A stretch of DNA of 28,330 nucleotides from a virus. The notes below the pieces were generated by a model. The model saw nothing but the letters and a program-made list of their open reading frames with translations. It was not told where the DNA came from and made no database searches. Below, in pieces: positions 2,837-21,694 of the stretch; position 1 is the stretch's first letter, and each line of letters opens with the position of its first letter. A program made the position numbers and the translations under genes. The stretch spans positions 1 to 28,330 of the IMG/VR virus record IMGVR_UViG_3300017917_001321; one strand, written 5' to 3'.

Positions 2837-4210
2837 TTAGGTTGAACTCGTAATTGTTAACCGTTTACTCTCGACCATGGTTTTAAATTTAGCACATACT
2901 GCTATTTTACTCTTGTTGGTAGTGGTAAATCCTTTGCGATATCTACGAGCATTTCCCATCTTGGCCGGTTCGCTTAGAAAAATTCCACGAATGTTTTCCT
3001 CACCTAACTCTGCTATAGATATCAGTGCGGCTTCACCTATTGTATTATTTTCTACACTATAATATATACTATTTTCGGTACCTATTGTATCGTATATATG
3101 ATTACATATCTCTTTCAAAACCTTGATTTGTCCGGGTATAGGAGTCTTATTATGCTGCCATTCTGCCACTTGGTTACAGCTTGGTAGTTCTAAAACTTGT
3201 ATAGCTGCCGGGTCTCCACCTGTACCTAAACTTGGATCCAGAGCGATAACATATGTTTGATCACGCTTAGGTTTAGCATACCAGCGTATTTGACCTTGTC
3301 TTTCTATGGGCTGAGTGCCGACCATGTCTATCAAATGAATAGGACTAATAAGTGTTTCTTCATCGCGAATAAACTCGCATCCGATTTCACGTCTAAAACG
3401 TTCCTCACCCAATTGTGCTCGTTGTTCTGCTGCCCATTTATCATCCCTGTCAGGATGCTCGGTCCAATGAGCTTGGTATGCTTTGAAACCATTTACACCC
3501 AACTCTGTTGGATTACCATATTCATCAACACATTTATTTGCACCTTTCCACAACTCTGCAAACTTATCTTCATCAGAGTTTGGTGTCGACGTAATAATTG
3601 CTTTACCACCAGTGCTCAATGTTGGTGATATAGATGTCCAAAATTCTTTAGCAATCGTGGGACGCACATAGGCAAACTCGTCAGCATACAATAAAGAGAT
3701 TGACATACCACGACCAGTTGTTTCTGTAGTAGTTTGTGCTACTATTCGGGAACCATTGTCAAACTCTAAACTGCCTTTGTTGTAACTTATTACCCCGGCA
3801 CGTATATGATCTGGCACGCTTTCATAAGCATATCTAACACGCTGCATGATTTCTTGTGCACCTGTATATTTGTGTGCTGCAACTAAAACAGTTGAGTCAG
3901 GTACAAACATTGCATACCATAACAAATAACCTGCTGCACTGGTCGTTTTTCCGGTCTGCCGCGGCATTAAGCTGATACTAAATCTATAATTGTGATAAGT
4001 ATCAATCAATCTAACTTGATAACCATAGGGTTGATACAATAACCGTCCACGCACAGGATGCTGTATATAAAAGAAATTTCTTAAAAAATATTCTGGCCCA
4101 GAATAGGGATCAGCACAGGCGATAAATTCTTTTATTTGTTTTTCGCTGAACGATTCTGTGGTGTGAGGTTTCTTGATTAATGTATAATCTAATGGTTTGC
4201 TCATAGTCAT
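2837..4210 (-). CDS. 17: Large terminase subunit gp17 (ATPase and most of the nuclease)
   Basis: TerL is the ATP-driven motor that packages DNA into the prohead through the portal and cuts the concatemer. Visible motifs are Walker A MPRQTGKTT (about residues 82-90), Walker B LLYADEF with D177 and E178, the coupling motif ITSTPNS (about 206-212), and the RNase H-fold nuclease acidic residues D325 in ALDPSLGTGGD and E387 in SVENNTIGEA. The frame stops after MVESKRLTITSST, just before the last nuclease motif, which continues in another frame (see 2637-2828). Without it the nuclease would lack its last acidic residues. The ATG at 4210 lies 2 nt after the stop of the 88-aa gene, suggesting translational coupling; a second ATG is at 4204. 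Identity is secure; the uncertainty is whether the frame break is real. Confidence 0.95.
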   Translation of the reverse strand: MTMSKPLDYTLIKKPHTTESFSEKQIKEFIACADPYSGPEYFLRNFFYIQHPVRGRLLYQPYGYQVRLIDTYHNYRFSISLMPRQTGKTTSAAGYLLWYAMFVPDSTVLVAAHKYTGAQEIMQRVRYAYESVPDHIRAGVISYNKGSLEFDNGSRIVAQTTTETTGRGMSISLLYADEFAYVRPTIAKEFWTSISPTLSTGGKAIITSTPNSDEDKFAELWKGANKCVDEYGNPTELGVNGFKAYQAHWTEHPDRDDKWAAEQRAQLGEERFRREIGCEFIRDEETLISPIHLIDMVGTQPIERQGQIRWYAKPKRDQTYVIALDPSLGTGGDPAAIQVLELPSCNQVAEWQHNKTPIPGQIKVLKEICNHIYDTIGTENSIYYSVENNTIGEAALISIAELGEENIRGIFLSEPAKMGNARRYRKGFTTTNKSKIAVCAKFKTMVESKRLTITSST

Positions 4211-4212
4211 AC

Positions 4213-4479
4213 TTATTTGATTGGTTTTTCACCAGTTAAATAAGGCAAACTAAACCATAATTTAAACCATTCTGGAGTACCAGGTTTTATTTTATGTTTA
4301 CGTTCTAAATGTCGTTTTTCCATGCCTGTTTTGCTAATGTTTATACCAGGCATGGATTCCACTGAGGGTTCAATACCAGCAAGACGACGTAATTCATTTA
4401 ATTCAGATTCTGAGATATAAGCGTCGTGCACGTTTTCTTTAGGCACAAAGTCTTCTGACCTAAATTTAATTTGCCGCAT
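4213..4479 (-). CDS. Small conserved protein with LRRLAGI peptide, upstream of terL
   Basis: This 88-aa protein of unknown function has two recognisable parts. Residues 26-37 read ELNELRRLAGIE, echoing the C-terminus of the 489-aa protein. The C-terminal half (HKIKPGTPEWFKLWFSLPYL) is basic and aromatic, with no known catalytic motif. The gene sits between the DUF3008-like frame and terL: its ATG overlaps the preceding stop as TAATG, and terL starts 2 nt after its own stop, so the three are probably translated together. No Shine-Dalgarno is visible, consistent with coupling. A packaging or capsid-assembly role is inferred from position only. Confidence 0.75.
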   Translation of the reverse strand: MRQIKFRSEDFVPKENVHDAYISESELNELRRLAGIEPSVESMPGINISKTGMEKRHLERKHKIKPGTPEWFKLWFSLPYLTGEKPIK

Positions 4480-4682
4480 TATTTGCCAGCCCGTTTGGGC
4501 AGTCCCTTATGCTTGGTGCTGGCAAAGTCTCGAGCATCTTTCTTGCCCATAGTACTAGCTACTTTTTTAAGCTCGGGACTGGCACTTTTGACTTTTTTGC
4601 CTTTTTGCATGGCGTGCACCATGCCCATGAATTTCTGTTGTTGCTGACTTACTGCCTTTTCAGCAACAACAGTCTCACTTAC
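4479..4682 (-). CDS. DUF3008-like domain encoded in the -1 frame of the 485-aa gene
   Basis: Read from the slip site, this frame gives 67 residues beginning VSETVVAEKAVSQQQQKFMG and containing KKDARDFASTKHKGLP. It resembles DUF3008 phage proteins (pattern AVSKAQQ..MGMV...KKG...SP...KK.A...DFA.TKHKGLP, recalled from memory). The first possible start codon is ATG 4628, inside the conserved part after the AVSQQQQKF segment; no ATG, GTG or TTG occurs in this frame between its upstream stop (TGA at 4779-4781) and that ATG. The domain is therefore most simply made by -1 frameshifting on A AAA AAG at 4682-4688, giving a fusion of about 552 aa. Alternatives are an A9 homopolymer miscount (A10 would fuse the frames) or a truncated 49-aa product from ATG 4628. 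The stop overlaps the next ATG (TAATG). Confidence 0.8.
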   Translation of the reverse strand, partial: VSETVVAEKAVSQQQQKFMGMVHAMQKGKKVKSASPELKKVASTMGKKDARDFASTKHKGLPKRAGK

Positions 4683-4688
4683 TTTTTT
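4635..4688 (-). promoter_or_regulatory. -1 programmed ribosomal frameshift signal
   Basis: On the minus strand the in-frame heptamer A AAA AAG (4688-4682), within a run of nine A, is followed by a 9-nt spacer (4681-4673) that begins with the zero-frame TAA, then a perfect 13-bp stem (CTGTTGTTGCTGA, 4672-4660, with TCAGCAACAACAG, 4647-4635) closing a 12-nt loop. Heptamer, spacer length and stem-loop match the known layout of bacterial -1 signals such as E. coli dnaX. No strong Shine-Dalgarno-like stimulator is seen at the dnaX distance. Transcriptional slippage on A9 could add to or replace ribosomal slippage. Confidence 0.8.
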
Positions 4689-6136
4689 TTTGATTTGTCG
4701 GCAATGGCCTTTTTCATTGGCTCTTTCCGGTCGCCATCTTTGTCCATGTCTAGAAAGTCTGGCTTCTTGCCTTTCTTTTCAGCTAGAACTTTAAATGCTG
4801 CTAATTCCTCATTCAGACGGCGTTCAATTTCTGCAAGCTCTTTTGCTTCACGCATAGCCATGGGATTGTCACCTTGACGATAGCTATGTTGATGTTGGGT
4901 CTTAGGACGATTAAGGTCATTGCCCTGTTGCATTTGGACTTCTATGCCTTGTACTTCAGGTTCCGGAGTATTGGCATATTCCTCTTCCATTTCATGCGGC
5001 CCTGTTGCCATTGATGATCCGCCACTGGCTAGACCGCTCAATTGAATCAACTTGGCTAATTCATCTGCTGCATCACCGCTAGCAGTCACAGTCAATGATT
5101 TACTGCCCGTCTTTGTATCCGTGCTTGCATTGATGTTTAGCCCAGACTCCTGCTCTTTCTGCATCATTGCACCATCATAACATTCTTCTAATGCTTCATG
5201 TGGATTACGTTCAATGGCTTCGCCAACTTTCTTAAGTTTAACAATAGCAGTTTTTTTATCGTCACCGTGTTTCTTATTCCATGACTTTGCGTAGTCTTGT
5301 GCTTCTTCTTCGTCCTTGAATGTTTTATGATGTTGATAATCTGACTTACCGTCCATGTGCTTGACACGATGATAGACATGAGCTTCGTAGATATCCTCAA
5401 CGCTTTCATTTAAATCATCTTCATCGTCGGCATCATCTTCTTCTTTAATATCATCATCTTTGTCTTTGGCTTCCTTTACCGGATATTTTTTGCCGTCAAC
5501 TTCAAACTCGTCTGCACCTGAGGCTTTAGCTTTGGCTAGTTCACCAGAAAATTCATTACCTTCTTCTGTTTTTTCTTCATCCATTTCTTCTTTTTTAGCT
5601 TCGGCAATGTAATCTAGTTTAGATAATAAGTTATGGAAATCAAAACCTTCCTTGGCCAATGGACTGGGAACTGGTTTTTGACCTGGTTTCAATCCTTGTG
5701 CAAATGCCAGTGCTTTATCTACTTCAGCACGAAACTTGGGATCAGTTTTATACTTGGGATGAGCTAGAGCTTGATCTAATGTCATGCCCTGTAGAGGATC
5801 CATACCCGGTTTTTCAGGTGGTGTGGGAGGTGGCACCTTCATGTTGGCATTCCAAGGTTGACCTAATTCTGCTTCATCAACTTTATCTTTCTTGGCACGT
5901 TTTTCTGCACGTTTAGTGTCAGCGTCCTTACTAGTGTCTTGACCAGGTAAATCTTTTTTAGTATACTGAGTACCTTTGTCAGTTTTTTTGGCCATATGCC
6001 CTGTATCAGTCTCACGTTCTTTTGAGCCTGAGTCTTTTTTGTCTTTACCAAAATAATATTCGTAATCTTCTTTAGATTCGTTAAGTTGCTTGCCCCCTAA
6101 GGAGTCAATTTTTTCTAATAGTTTCTTAAAATCCAT
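4679..6136 (-). CDS. Large charged, low-complexity phage protein, frameshift donor (485 aa)
   Basis: The function is unknown. The protein is very rich in Lys, Glu and Asp. It starts MDFKKLLEKIDSLGG and repeats a related peptide (FDFHNLLSKLDYIAEA, about residues 165-180). An acidic stretch (KDDDIKEEDDADDEDD) follows near the middle. Next is a compact segment around YHRVKHMDGKSDYQHHKTF, and then LTVTASGDAADELAKLIQ ending in LSGL, a peptide type I recall from marine phage proteins. The end, PDFLDMDKDGDRKEPMKKA, is an EF-hand-like acidic loop also common in such phages. Translation normally stops at TAA 4679-4681 after a lysine run, but a -1 signal here would append a DUF3008-like domain. The ATG is preceded by AAAGGAAAGT. 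Position between small and large terminase suggests a capsid-internal or scaffold-type role (inference). Confidence 0.8.
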   Translation of the reverse strand: MDFKKLLEKIDSLGGKQLNESKEDYEYYFGKDKKDSGSKERETDTGHMAKKTDKGTQYTKKDLPGQDTSKDADTKRAEKRAKKDKVDEAELGQPWNANMKVPPPTPPEKPGMDPLQGMTLDQALAHPKYKTDPKFRAEVDKALAFAQGLKPGQKPVPSPLAKEGFDFHNLLSKLDYIAEAKKEEMDEEKTEEGNEFSGELAKAKASGADEFEVDGKKYPVKEAKDKDDDIKEEDDADDEDDLNESVEDIYEAHVYHRVKHMDGKSDYQHHKTFKDEEEAQDYAKSWNKKHGDDKKTAIVKLKKVGEAIERNPHEALEECYDGAMMQKEQESGLNINASTDTKTGSKSLTVTASGDAADELAKLIQLSGLASGGSSMATGPHEMEEEYANTPEPEVQGIEVQMQQGNDLNRPKTQHQHSYRQGDNPMAMREAKELAEIERRLNEELAAFKVLAEKKGKKPDFLDMDKDGDRKEPMKKAIADKSKKK

Positions 6137-18735: not shown

Positions 18736-18756
18736 CAACATATTTGGAGAGTGATC

Positions 18757-19839
18757 TTGCCTAGAATTAGCCTGTGGCGTGATGGACGTCATTCTAATGA
18801 CTACCGTTTTTTTGATAGAAACATAGCGGAATTTATGAATGCTTCGGGCACAGGCGTGCTTGTTCATAAGTATTTGGGCCCAATGCCTCAGCCTGGGACA
18901 GATGACCTTACTAAACCCGGTAATGCTACTCAAAGCGAACTTAACATACAAGATCTGCTCTTTTTAGAAAATAGGGATCGCAAATATGAGGAAAATGTCT
19001 ATAAACTAAGAGGTTGTTATCAAGTAGCAGACAATAGTTTTGATCTTAGCCAGTTTGGGCTATTCCTACAAACTGGTACATTGTATATGACTTTTCATCT
19101 GACCGAAATGGTAAATGCCATAGGTAGAAAAATCATGAATGGAGATGTTTTAGAACTGCAACATCTTGTTGACTACGAAACTTTGGATCCAAACCTGCCC
19201 GCAGCCCTAAAAAGATTTTTTGTAGTTTCTGACTGCACAAGGGGTGCGGAAGGCTACAGCCCAACATGGTGGCCACATATTTGGAGATGTAAAATAAATC
19301 CCTTGGTAGACAGCCAAGAATATCGCGATATCATAAACAAAATTACTGTAAGTGAAGACAATAATACTCCAATACGAGAGATCATGAGCACATATAACAA
19401 GTATACTCAAATAAATGATGCTATTGTCCAGCAAGCTGAAATTGAGTTACCACAAAGCGGATATGATACAACACCTATCTACCATAGAAGTGTAGATGAG
19501 TACAGTGCAAATTTTAGTGTCAACGCATATTTAGGCAGCACCGATACAGCACCAAATGGAGAAAATGTAACTCAAAGCGTTACGTTTCCTGCAGATCCTG
19601 ATATTGGTGACTACTGCTTGAGAGTTGATTTTGTTCCAAATAGACTGTTCCGATGGGACGGAGTACGTTGGAGAAAGATAGAAGATAAGGTAAGAACTAA
19701 TATAACAAATAATAGTGCAGATAATAAAACTCAACGTAATAGTTTTATTACTAATACTAATACATATGTAGATGTTTATGGCAACACTCAACCGCAAAAA
19801 CAAAGTTTACATAATGCACTTAAACCCAAGGCAGATTAA
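18757..19839 (+). CDS. Neck-region structural protein next to gp15 (gp14 position)
   Basis: This 360-aa protein has strong motifs recalled from T4-like marine phages: PRISLWRDGRHSNDYRFFDR at the start, ELNIQDLLFLENRDRKYEEN, FGLFLQTGTLYMTFHLTEMV, MNGDVLELQHL and the GYSPTWWPHIWRCK segment. Near residue 290 it has FRWDGVRWRKIED. The position directly before gp15 is where T4 has gp14, so it may act in the neck, but it is not clearly homologous to T4 gp14. The start is probably TTG 18757: it begins the conserved PRISLW sequence and lies 6 nt after GGAGA, whereas GTG 18751 would directly abut that ribosome site. The stop overlaps gp15 as TAATG. Confidence 0.75.
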   Translation: MPRISLWRDGRHSNDYRFFDRNIAEFMNASGTGVLVHKYLGPMPQPGTDDLTKPGNATQSELNIQDLLFLENRDRKYEENVYKLRGCYQVADNSFDLSQFGLFLQTGTLYMTFHLTEMVNAIGRKIMNGDVLELQHLVDYETLDPNLPAALKRFFVVSDCTRGAEGYSPTWWPHIWRCKINPLVDSQEYRDIINKITVSEDNNTPIREIMSTYNKYTQINDAIVQQAEIELPQSGYDTTPIYHRSVDEYSANFSVNAYLGSTDTAPNGENVTQSVTFPADPDIGDYCLRVDFVPNRLFRWDGVRWRKIEDKVRTNITNNSADNKTQRNSFITNTNTYVDVYGNTQPQKQSLHNALKPKAD

Positions 19840-21284
19840 TGAGTTCATATTTCTATTCAGGTCAAATACGTCGTTATATCCAACAGTTCATTAGACTGTT
19901 AAATAACTTTCAAATTCAATTAGGCAAAGACAATAATGGTATGGCCAGTCTCTTACGTGTACCTATATACTATGGAGATAGTAGTAGACAGGTTTCTAGC
20001 ATAATTGCTAAAAATTCTGAAAATAGTCTGGCATCAGTGCCCGCCATGGCAGTTTATATATCTGGATTAAAATATGATAGACAGCGTATTCAAGAACCGC
20101 AGCATGTGAGCAAAATGCGTATTCGTGAACGTGCATATGATTCAGATACAGATGAATACACCAATATCCAAGGAGACCTTGTAACCATCGAAAGGTTGAT
20201 GCCTGTCCCATATCTACTAACAATGAAGGTTGATATTTGGACTTCAAACACAGACCAAAAACTACAACTAATAGAACAATTAGCAGTTTTATTCAATCCT
20301 AGTTTAGAGGTACAAAGTACCGATAGTTACATAGATTGGACTAGTCTAAGCACTATTAACCTAGTTGACCAAAACTTCAGTAGTCGTACAGTTCCAGTAG
20401 GAGCAGAAGATCCATTGGACATAGCAACGCTTACATTTGAGATTCCTATCTGGTTAAGTGCACCAGCAAAAATTAAAAAACAAGGTGTTATTCATAAAAT
20501 TATTGCCAGTGTTTACGATCCTATCACTGATACAAATAGTATACAGAATTATTTCGACATAGCCGGCAGTGTTGTTGCTACAAAACAAATCTATACTCCT
20601 ATTAACTTAAATGTGGTATATCTTGATAATGTTGTACAACTTTATGTTAATCGCAGTGAAGTAGAATTTGACGATGGTACTTTACCTGCCATGCAAACCG
20701 GCGATTGGAGAGTGGCCATTCGAAGTTTTGGCGAATTGGCCGGGGTTGGGCCTAATGCAGACTTACTTAAGAATGGTATCAGTCAATTGCGTTTAGAAAA
20801 CGATGGTATTACTATAGTAGGCACTGTTGCCTATCATCCAGTAGATAATAGTTTATTATTGTTTACAGTTGATCAAGATACCTTGCCTGTTAATACGCTA
20901 TTACCGGTAGACGCCATAATTGATCCGCAAAATGTAAAAATAACCGATTCCTTGCTCAATCCCAGTATTGGAACTAGATTCTTAATCTTAAGCGGCATTG
21001 GTTCATTAGATAATAATGATTATGATGTTATGACAGTAGATGGAGCTCAGTTATGGAATAGACCAGGCGAGCCAGAACTAGTTGAAGCAACATATGATAT
21101 TATAGAATGGGATGGGTTGAAATGGATAGTGGCATTTGATAATACTAGCGTAAACTATCAAAATACCGTACAATACGTTACTAACCTTACTACCGGAATT
21201 CAATATAAATGGAAAAATCAACAATGGACAAAGAGCGTGATGGGTCGCTACGGCGTAGGGGCATGGAGTTTCGTTCCAAATTAA
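19839..21284 (+). CDS. 15: Proximal tail sheath stabiliser gp15 with C-terminal extension
   Basis: Gp15 caps the top of the tail tube and sheath and joins the neck. Residues 1 to about 220 match the family: YFYSGQIRRYIQQFIRLLNN, LLRVPIYYGDSSRQ, ERLMPVPYLLTMKVDIWTSN directly followed by TDQKLQLIEQ, LFNPSLEVQSTDSYIDWTSL and PLDIATLTFEIPIWLSAPAK. T4 gp15 is 272 aa; this one has about 200 extra residues. The extension is beta-rich and ends with Trp motifs (IEWDGLKWIVAFD, QYKWKNQQWTKS) like those in the neighbouring neck protein and sheath. It overlaps the preceding stop (TAATG) with AAGG upstream, and its end overlaps the Nudix gene. Confidence 0.92.
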   Translation: MSSYFYSGQIRRYIQQFIRLLNNFQIQLGKDNNGMASLLRVPIYYGDSSRQVSSIIAKNSENSLASVPAMAVYISGLKYDRQRIQEPQHVSKMRIRERAYDSDTDEYTNIQGDLVTIERLMPVPYLLTMKVDIWTSNTDQKLQLIEQLAVLFNPSLEVQSTDSYIDWTSLSTINLVDQNFSSRTVPVGAEDPLDIATLTFEIPIWLSAPAKIKKQGVIHKIIASVYDPITDTNSIQNYFDIAGSVVATKQIYTPINLNVVYLDNVVQLYVNRSEVEFDDGTLPAMQTGDWRVAIRSFGELAGVGPNADLLKNGISQLRLENDGITIVGTVAYHPVDNSLLLFTVDQDTLPVNTLLPVDAIIDPQNVKITDSLLNPSIGTRFLILSGIGSLDNNDYDVMTVDGAQLWNRPGEPELVEATYDIIEWDGLKWIVAFDNTSVNYQNTVQYVTNLTTGIQYKWKNQQWTKSVMGRYGVGAWSFVPN

Positions 21285-21694
21285 CCCAAGCAGTCGGAGC
21301 CCTGATTTTCAGTAAATCTACTAAACGTTATTTGTTTTTATTAAGAAACAACGGTTCGTGGCCAATGACTTGGGCCTTGCCCGGGGGAAAGATAGATAAC
21401 GGTGAGACTATTCTAGATGCATTAACAAGAGAGATTGATGAAGAATTGGGCGGTACTATACGTGACCCAATTCTTATTCAATTAGATAAATTTATTAGCA
21501 ACAATTCTAAATTTAGTTACACAACCTATTTTATTTCAGTCGAAGATGAATTTATTCCATTTCTAAATTCAGAGCATCTAGGATACGCATGGTTACCGTT
21601 ACTAAATGCACCAAATCCATTACACCCAGGAATTAATCGTACTATGAAAAATCCTGGGGTAATGGACCGAATCAAAAAAGCAGAGAGTAATTAA
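21263..21694 (+). CDS. Nudix hydrolase
   Basis: The Nudix box is complete: GGKIDNGETILDALTREIDE followed by ELGG, fitting GX5EX7REUXEEXGU and carrying the metal-binding Glu residues. The family hydrolyses nucleoside diphosphates linked to another group; the substrate cannot be told from sequence (oxidised dNTPs, NADH, ADP-ribose and others are possible). The domain starts near TQAVGALIF, so ATG 21263 (MEFRSKLTQ) leaves a compact protein of 143 aa; in-frame ATGs at 21209 and 21224 overlap gp15 further and also remain possible. The only ribosome-site-like sequence, AGGGG, is unusually close to 21263. Being in the late structural block is unusual for a metabolic enzyme. It converges with the 128-aa gene; the two stop codons share TTAA. 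Confidence 0.85.
   Translation: MEFRSKLTQAVGALIFSKSTKRYLFLLRNNGSWPMTWALPGGKIDNGETILDALTREIDEELGGTIRDPILIQLDKFISNNSKFSYTTYFISVEDEFIPFLNSEHLGYAWLPLLNAPNPLHPGINRTMKNPGVMDRIKKAESN

Follow-up and report, generated by a model that had tools for sequence, protein, structure and literature searches.

A predicted -1 frameshift on a run of nine A's that would add a DUF3008-like domain to an uncharacterised phage protein encoded near the terminase gene

An open -1 frame behind the P0001 gene

How could a phage express a conserved domain that has neither a start codon nor an in-frame gene ahead of it? This question is raised by a locus in the window, by which we mean the whole 28,330-nt stretch of viral DNA analysed here. 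The zero-frame gene (P0001; 4679..6136, minus strand) was defined as an open reading frame and its translation is an acidic, Lys-rich protein of 485 aa. In the gene order of the window it is flanked by tail/neck genes and by the gene for the terminase large subunit (TerL). On the minus strand its 3' end reads TCA AAA AAA AAG TAA. The run of nine A's (A9, 4691-4683) occurs once in the window and forms, with the G that follows, an A9G slip tract (4682..4691, minus strand) containing the in-phase slippery heptamer A_AAA_AAG at 4688-4682. The next codon is the zero-frame stop TAA (4679..4681, minus strand), exactly as the preliminary description of this DNA had it. A_AAA_AAG is found in phase at 2 of the 7938 codons of the window.

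The -1 frame is open over 4778-4482 on the minus strand and has its stop at 4481-4479. Read from the heptamer, it gives an extension of 67 aa plus stop (4479..4682, minus strand), VSETVVAEKAVSQQQQKFMGM...LPKRAGK, and the predicted fusion of P0001 with this extension has 552 aa. As had been claimed earlier, no ATG, GTG or TTG precedes the conserved N-terminus AVSQQQQ in the window's -1 frame, where the earliest ATG (4628) lies within the domain itself. Residues 10-64 of the extension (4491..4655, minus strand) match the DUF3008 profile PF11450 over positions 1-56 of 57 with 22.5 bits (E 1.3e-4), narrowly below the curated cut-off of 24, and PHROG 30268 is matched at E 1e-20. The DUF3008-like identity first proposed for this frame thus stands on the PHROG match together with a slightly sub-threshold Pfam match. 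Residues S12, Q15, F18, G20, M21, G28, T56, G60 and P62 are invariant across the extension and 32 relatives. An AlphaFold model of the extension has three helices at low confidence (pLDDT 64). Sequence searches of the PDB found no match for P0001 or for DUF3008, and DUF3008 is not mentioned across the open-access literature that we searched.

The -1-frame stop shares nucleotides with the ATG (TAATG) of a gene for 88 aa (4213..4479, minus strand), the product of which gave zero matches in Pfam or PHROG searches. This gene is followed by TerL (2837..4210, minus strand; PF03237, 5e-17; phrog_36964, 4e-106). The locus had originally been placed between gp16 and gp17. These labels are not supported, as the 485-aa and 88-aa proteins match no small-terminase family in Pfam or PHROG, and the recognisable TerL is the gene after the 88-aa gene and not the immediate neighbour of the 485-aa gene. 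The window has no DNA-level similarity to named phages, and a tblastn search of P0001 against named phages gave no match. A full-length P0001 homologue is present in L188, and most of P0001 is covered in L007, L083, L084 and L088. The TerL gene is separated from its next neighbour by a gap of 210 nt (2627-2836), almost all of which is taken up by a minus-strand ORF of 63 aa that starts with TTG (2637-2828). Elsewhere in the window a block of plus-strand genes (18751-21694, plus strand), which includes a T4 gp15-like tail sheath stabiliser (19839-21284), breaks the otherwise minus-strand structural cluster.

We propose, with a probability of about 0.8, that this gene makes two proteins of 485 and 552 aa through a -1 slip on A9G. 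Normal decoding would halt at the TAA and yield the 485-aa form. In some passages a -1 slip would occur on A9G, made by a ribosome on A_AAA_AAG with the aid of the hairpin described below, by a polymerase inserting one A, or by both. The -1 frame would then be translated, adding 67 aa with DUF3008 and ending the 552-aa product at the start of the next gene. That slippage occurs, how often, and which machine slips is what we infer from the sequence. Standard gene callers would probably stop at the zero-frame stop and miss the conserved N-terminus of DUF3008.

Conservation of the junction in related phages

With the extension as the sole query, 80 loci were recovered, and the layout of the window recurs in four of them that come from different metagenomes (L002, L003, L007 and L008). 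Their TerL proteins are 80%, 79%, 82% and 76% identical to that of the window, respectively, and the five phages are therefore not copies of one phage. The junctions read TCA AAA AAA AAG TAG/TAA in L002/L003, TCA AAA AAA AAG AAG TAA in L007 and TCA AAA AAA AAA TAG in L008. The homopolymer of at least 8 A's is thus A9 in four loci and A10 in one (L008), and the in-phase heptamer before the zero-frame stop is A_AAA_AAG in the window, L002, L003 and L007 and A_AAA_AAA in L008. The stop of the relatives is TAA or TAG and comes one codon later in L007. DUF3008 lies at the identical -1 offset in 5/5 loci, with the A-run directly or one codon before the zero-frame stop. When the loci were aligned, the A9 columns were unchanged across the five frameshift-type and two in-frame loci; the tenth A of L008 is a G-to-A substitution, the change in L007 is a 3-nt insertion, and no aligned locus has a 1-nt indel at the junction. 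Every locus still has TAA or TAG as its zero-frame stop, although the overlapping -1 codons vary (GTA AGT, GTA GGT and ATA GAT, for VS, VG and ID). In 5/5 loci no ATG, GTG or TTG precedes the conserved core in the -1 frame, and the -1 ORF is adjoined downstream by a homologue of the window's 88-aa gene. The comparison with relatives that the preliminary description had called for therefore favours it on three counts, the A-run, the -1 phase and the zero-frame stop all being kept in 4/4 same-layout relatives. Because the five loci share ancestry, this census of five represents conservation and not five independent events, and the loci count as one origin. A TerL tree of the frameshift-type phages gave no resolution on whether the layout arose once.

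In L007 (3001-3714) and L008 (254-1000) the -1 extension runs 170-185 aa past DUF3008. These added sequences differ from each other and have no Pfam match, and some include signal-peptide-like stretches. As a side reading, the two tails may be exchangeable cassettes behind one frameshift site.

Motif-blind searches yielded 122 distinct DUF3008 contexts. DUF3008 is continuous with more than 100 upstream codons or the contig end in 97 of the 122, has its own start codon in 20, and in the remaining five has neither a start nor an in-frame upstream ORF. In each of these last five the -1 junction has a run of A9 or A10 (5/5), and a run of at least 8 A's is present in just 5 of the other 117 contexts.

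Close relatives show the gene and the domain in further states. L012 and L019 carry the same A9 and encode the fusion in a single frame; what separates them from the frameshift type is an indel of 10 nt immediately upstream. L188, on the same contig as L019, provides a one-frame homologue that aligns end to end with the predicted 552-aa fusion, the alignment passing through the junction (SKKKVSETVVAEKA / APKKKVAETVVAEKA). This homologue and the layout of the relatives support the two products, 485 and about 552 aa, that had been suggested at the outset. In L004, L009, L017 and L022 DUF3008 is encoded separately and begins with an ATG. DUF3008 is missing from L084, L086 and L088, where the gene closes with AAA AAG TGA and either overlaps the beginning of the 88-aa gene or directly adjoins it; L083, likewise without DUF3008, ends AAAAGAAG TAA ahead of a different gene. 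A9 at the gene end is absent in these four DUF3008-less relatives. Since DUF3008 is missing in some close relatives, continuous with the gene in others, reached by a predicted frameshift in a third set and encoded separately in a fourth, these phages offer a natural comparison for studying why some domains are kept sub-stoichiometric. A search with the pattern AAAAAARTAAGTNNNN{0,12}CTGTTGYTG was discarded, as its single match (L082) is unrelated and has no DUF3008.

Possible slippage mechanisms and alternative explanations

Past the heptamer and a spacer of 9 nt (4681-4673) lies a hairpin (4635..4672, minus strand) that may act as a stimulator. The perfect 13-bp stem (4672-4660 paired with 4647-4635), 12-nt loop and 9-nt spacer described earlier are borne out by the coordinates and by the RNA fold of 4700-4600, at -32.3 kcal/mol (z -5.6), with 0/200 shuffles equally low. 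The usual spacing between heptamer and hairpin is 5-8 nt, as against 9 nt in the window (PMC4066793). A null model that drew synonymous codons according to codon usage in the window produced a 13-bp stem in 0.1% of draws (P about 0.001), and the corresponding P values are 0.005 for L002, 0.012 for L007 and 0.04 for L003. Hairpins of 13, 12, 11 and 8 bp occur in four frameshift-type loci. The stem is lost in L008, and a covariation test of the relatives' alignment found nothing above shuffles. A hairpin is also present in the in-frame relatives L012, L019 and L020. Because it is absent in L008, present in these three and without covariation, the hairpin is not specific to or diagnostic of frameshift loci. 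Bacterial -1 signals of the X_XXZ_ZZN type often, though not always, include a conserved hairpin or Shine-Dalgarno-like element as a stimulator. No Shine-Dalgarno-like stimulator was found in the usual place, and an Rfam search gave a chance match alone, far under its cut-off.

These results bear on which machine would slip. The slippery site of dnaX is likewise A_AAA_AAG, one of the heptamers on which shifting is most frequent in E. coli (PMC5009743; PMC4066793). The dnaX-like signal first described here holds as to the heptamer and its phase, which are conserved, but its hairpin is not diagnostic, and a ribosomal mechanism is not established over a transcriptional one because RNA polymerase, too, is recognised to slip on A9/A10. 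It is possible that RNA polymerase alone slips, giving a mixed mRNA pool from which messages with one extra A are read into DUF3008, the hairpin being incidental; we hold this only tentatively. All five loci have 9-10 A's, more than the heptamer requires, and runs of 9 A's are established to slip transcriptionally in bacteria (PMC5009743), as in Thermus dnaX, where A9 makes gamma, the short product (PMC3711429). L008 lacks the hairpin and has A10 and A_AAA_AAA, the weaker heptamer for ribosomes, a combination that fits polymerase slippage better. The window, L002, L003 and L007 nevertheless retain A_AAA_AAG, the best form for ribosomes (PMC5009743), and three of these four have stems of 11-13 bp that are unlikely under the synonymous-codon null. 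For the window we judge ribosomal shifting to be slightly more likely and a polymerase contribution quite possible.

Three further explanations dispense with slippage. Homopolymers are error-prone and the related phages L012 and L019 have in-frame fusions, so that the true tract might be ten A's in an ordinary in-frame fusion, misread in assembly or sequencing. We consider this improbable: it needs an error of the same sign in five contigs of different metagenomes, the substitution in L008 and the extra codon in L007 both leave the -1 offset intact, and A9/A10 was assembled in frame in four in-frame contexts (L011, L012, L014 and L019). Production of DUF3008 as a separate protein, by reinitiation or from a non-standard start after the 485-aa gene, would resemble the own-ATG genes of the four relatives above and the stop-overlapping GTG of L172. 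This is very unlikely given that the core has no standard start before it in 5/5 loci and that the domain's N-terminus precedes the first ATG; the only near-starts are ATA in L008 and ATC 39 nt upstream in three others, with none in L007. Finally, the lost frame and missing start could mark DUF3008 in these loci as the decaying remnant of an earlier fusion. Pairwise dN/dS in the -1 frame is, however, 0.03-0.17, indicating strong purifying selection at near-saturated synonymous divergence (dN 0.03-0.16; dS 0.83-3.4 where computable, one pair being saturated); in one alternative frame dN/dS is about 0.9-4.5. From the low -1-frame values it follows that the extension is translated as protein now or was until very recently. 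With the frame also open in 5/5 loci, and in L007 and L008 free of stops for as many as about 230-240 codons counted from the core, we find decay hardly credible.

Known recoding systems, possible function and other A-run sites

In phage lambda a -1 frameshift in gpG-T serves the tail assembly chaperone. P0001 resembles gpG-T in having a -1 shift near the end of a structural-region gene with a minor longer product predicted, but the genes, their position and the slippery site are different, and P0001 showed no link to a chaperone or a tape measure. The same purpose is seen in phage capsid or tail proteins, those of T3/T7 gene 10, A2, PSA and SPP1 and the major tail proteins of 936 phages, in which there is likewise a stop at the gene end, a low-frequency shift and an optional out-of-frame domain (PMC5009743, PMC6669499), and in which the appended domain, like DUF3008, is elsewhere in frame or separate. 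This has been related to recombination that brings in domains out of frame (PMC5009743). The appended domain is DUF3008 here, as opposed to the Ig-like (often) or carbohydrate-binding domains of the capsid and tail systems, and the carrier is an uncharacterised TerL-side protein known from sequence rather than a major capsid or tail protein. By analogy, the locus appears to operate as the reversed-polarity dnaX layout of Chlorobi and others, where A9/A10 or A_AAA_AAG also lies directly before the zero-frame stop and the shift is needed for the longer product (PMC3711429, PMC5009743). Unlike the P0001 locus, which has no polymerase function, dnaX is an unrelated cellular gene. It is well supported that this case has a known recoding purpose, an optional domain on a phage protein, and that what is new is this gene and DUF3008. 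Few phage proteins are known whose optional domains depend on recoding, and to these the locus would add a gene and a domain.

Hints of function come from other phages. The nearest named TerL is that of PA5oct (56% identity), and PA5oct gp281, encoded at the position of P0001, is annotated as structural by mass spectrometry; P0001 and gp281 gave no convincing alignment, and their similarity is not significant. ORF93 of cyanophage S-SCSM1, a DUF3008 protein, is labelled a virion protein, and S-SCSM1 virions were analysed by mass spectrometry (PMC9602691). We suggest that the long form may be a virion component in sub-stoichiometric amount, DUF3008 being a helical and basic tail that only a minority of the copies of a protein of the head/neck region would carry as an option.

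The A-run was also seen in other settings. In the linkers of L012 and L019 (L189 and L188) stops lie 1 and 5 nt beyond A9 in the other two frames, and slippage there would yield a short form, a polarity opposite to that of the window. A9 might on this basis be a conserved two-way slippage site, adding DUF3008 in the frameshift type and removing it in L012/L019, which we regard as rather unlikely. Were it true, selection would keep the ratio of two products while a 10-nt indel flips the coding polarity. L172 (9795-9982; the same as L212) belongs to a phage in which homologues of the window were not detectable; an unrelated ORF is closed there by CGA AAA AAA AAG TGA, with DUF3008 in the -1 frame. 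L172 was set aside as a second independent origin, as a GTG overlaps the stop there and makes reinitiation possible. Members of the L198-L211 group, from other phage families (for example L198:1329-1511 and L200:5347-5521), were recovered in a search biased towards A-runs and carry A9/A10 in the in-frame linker before DUF3008.
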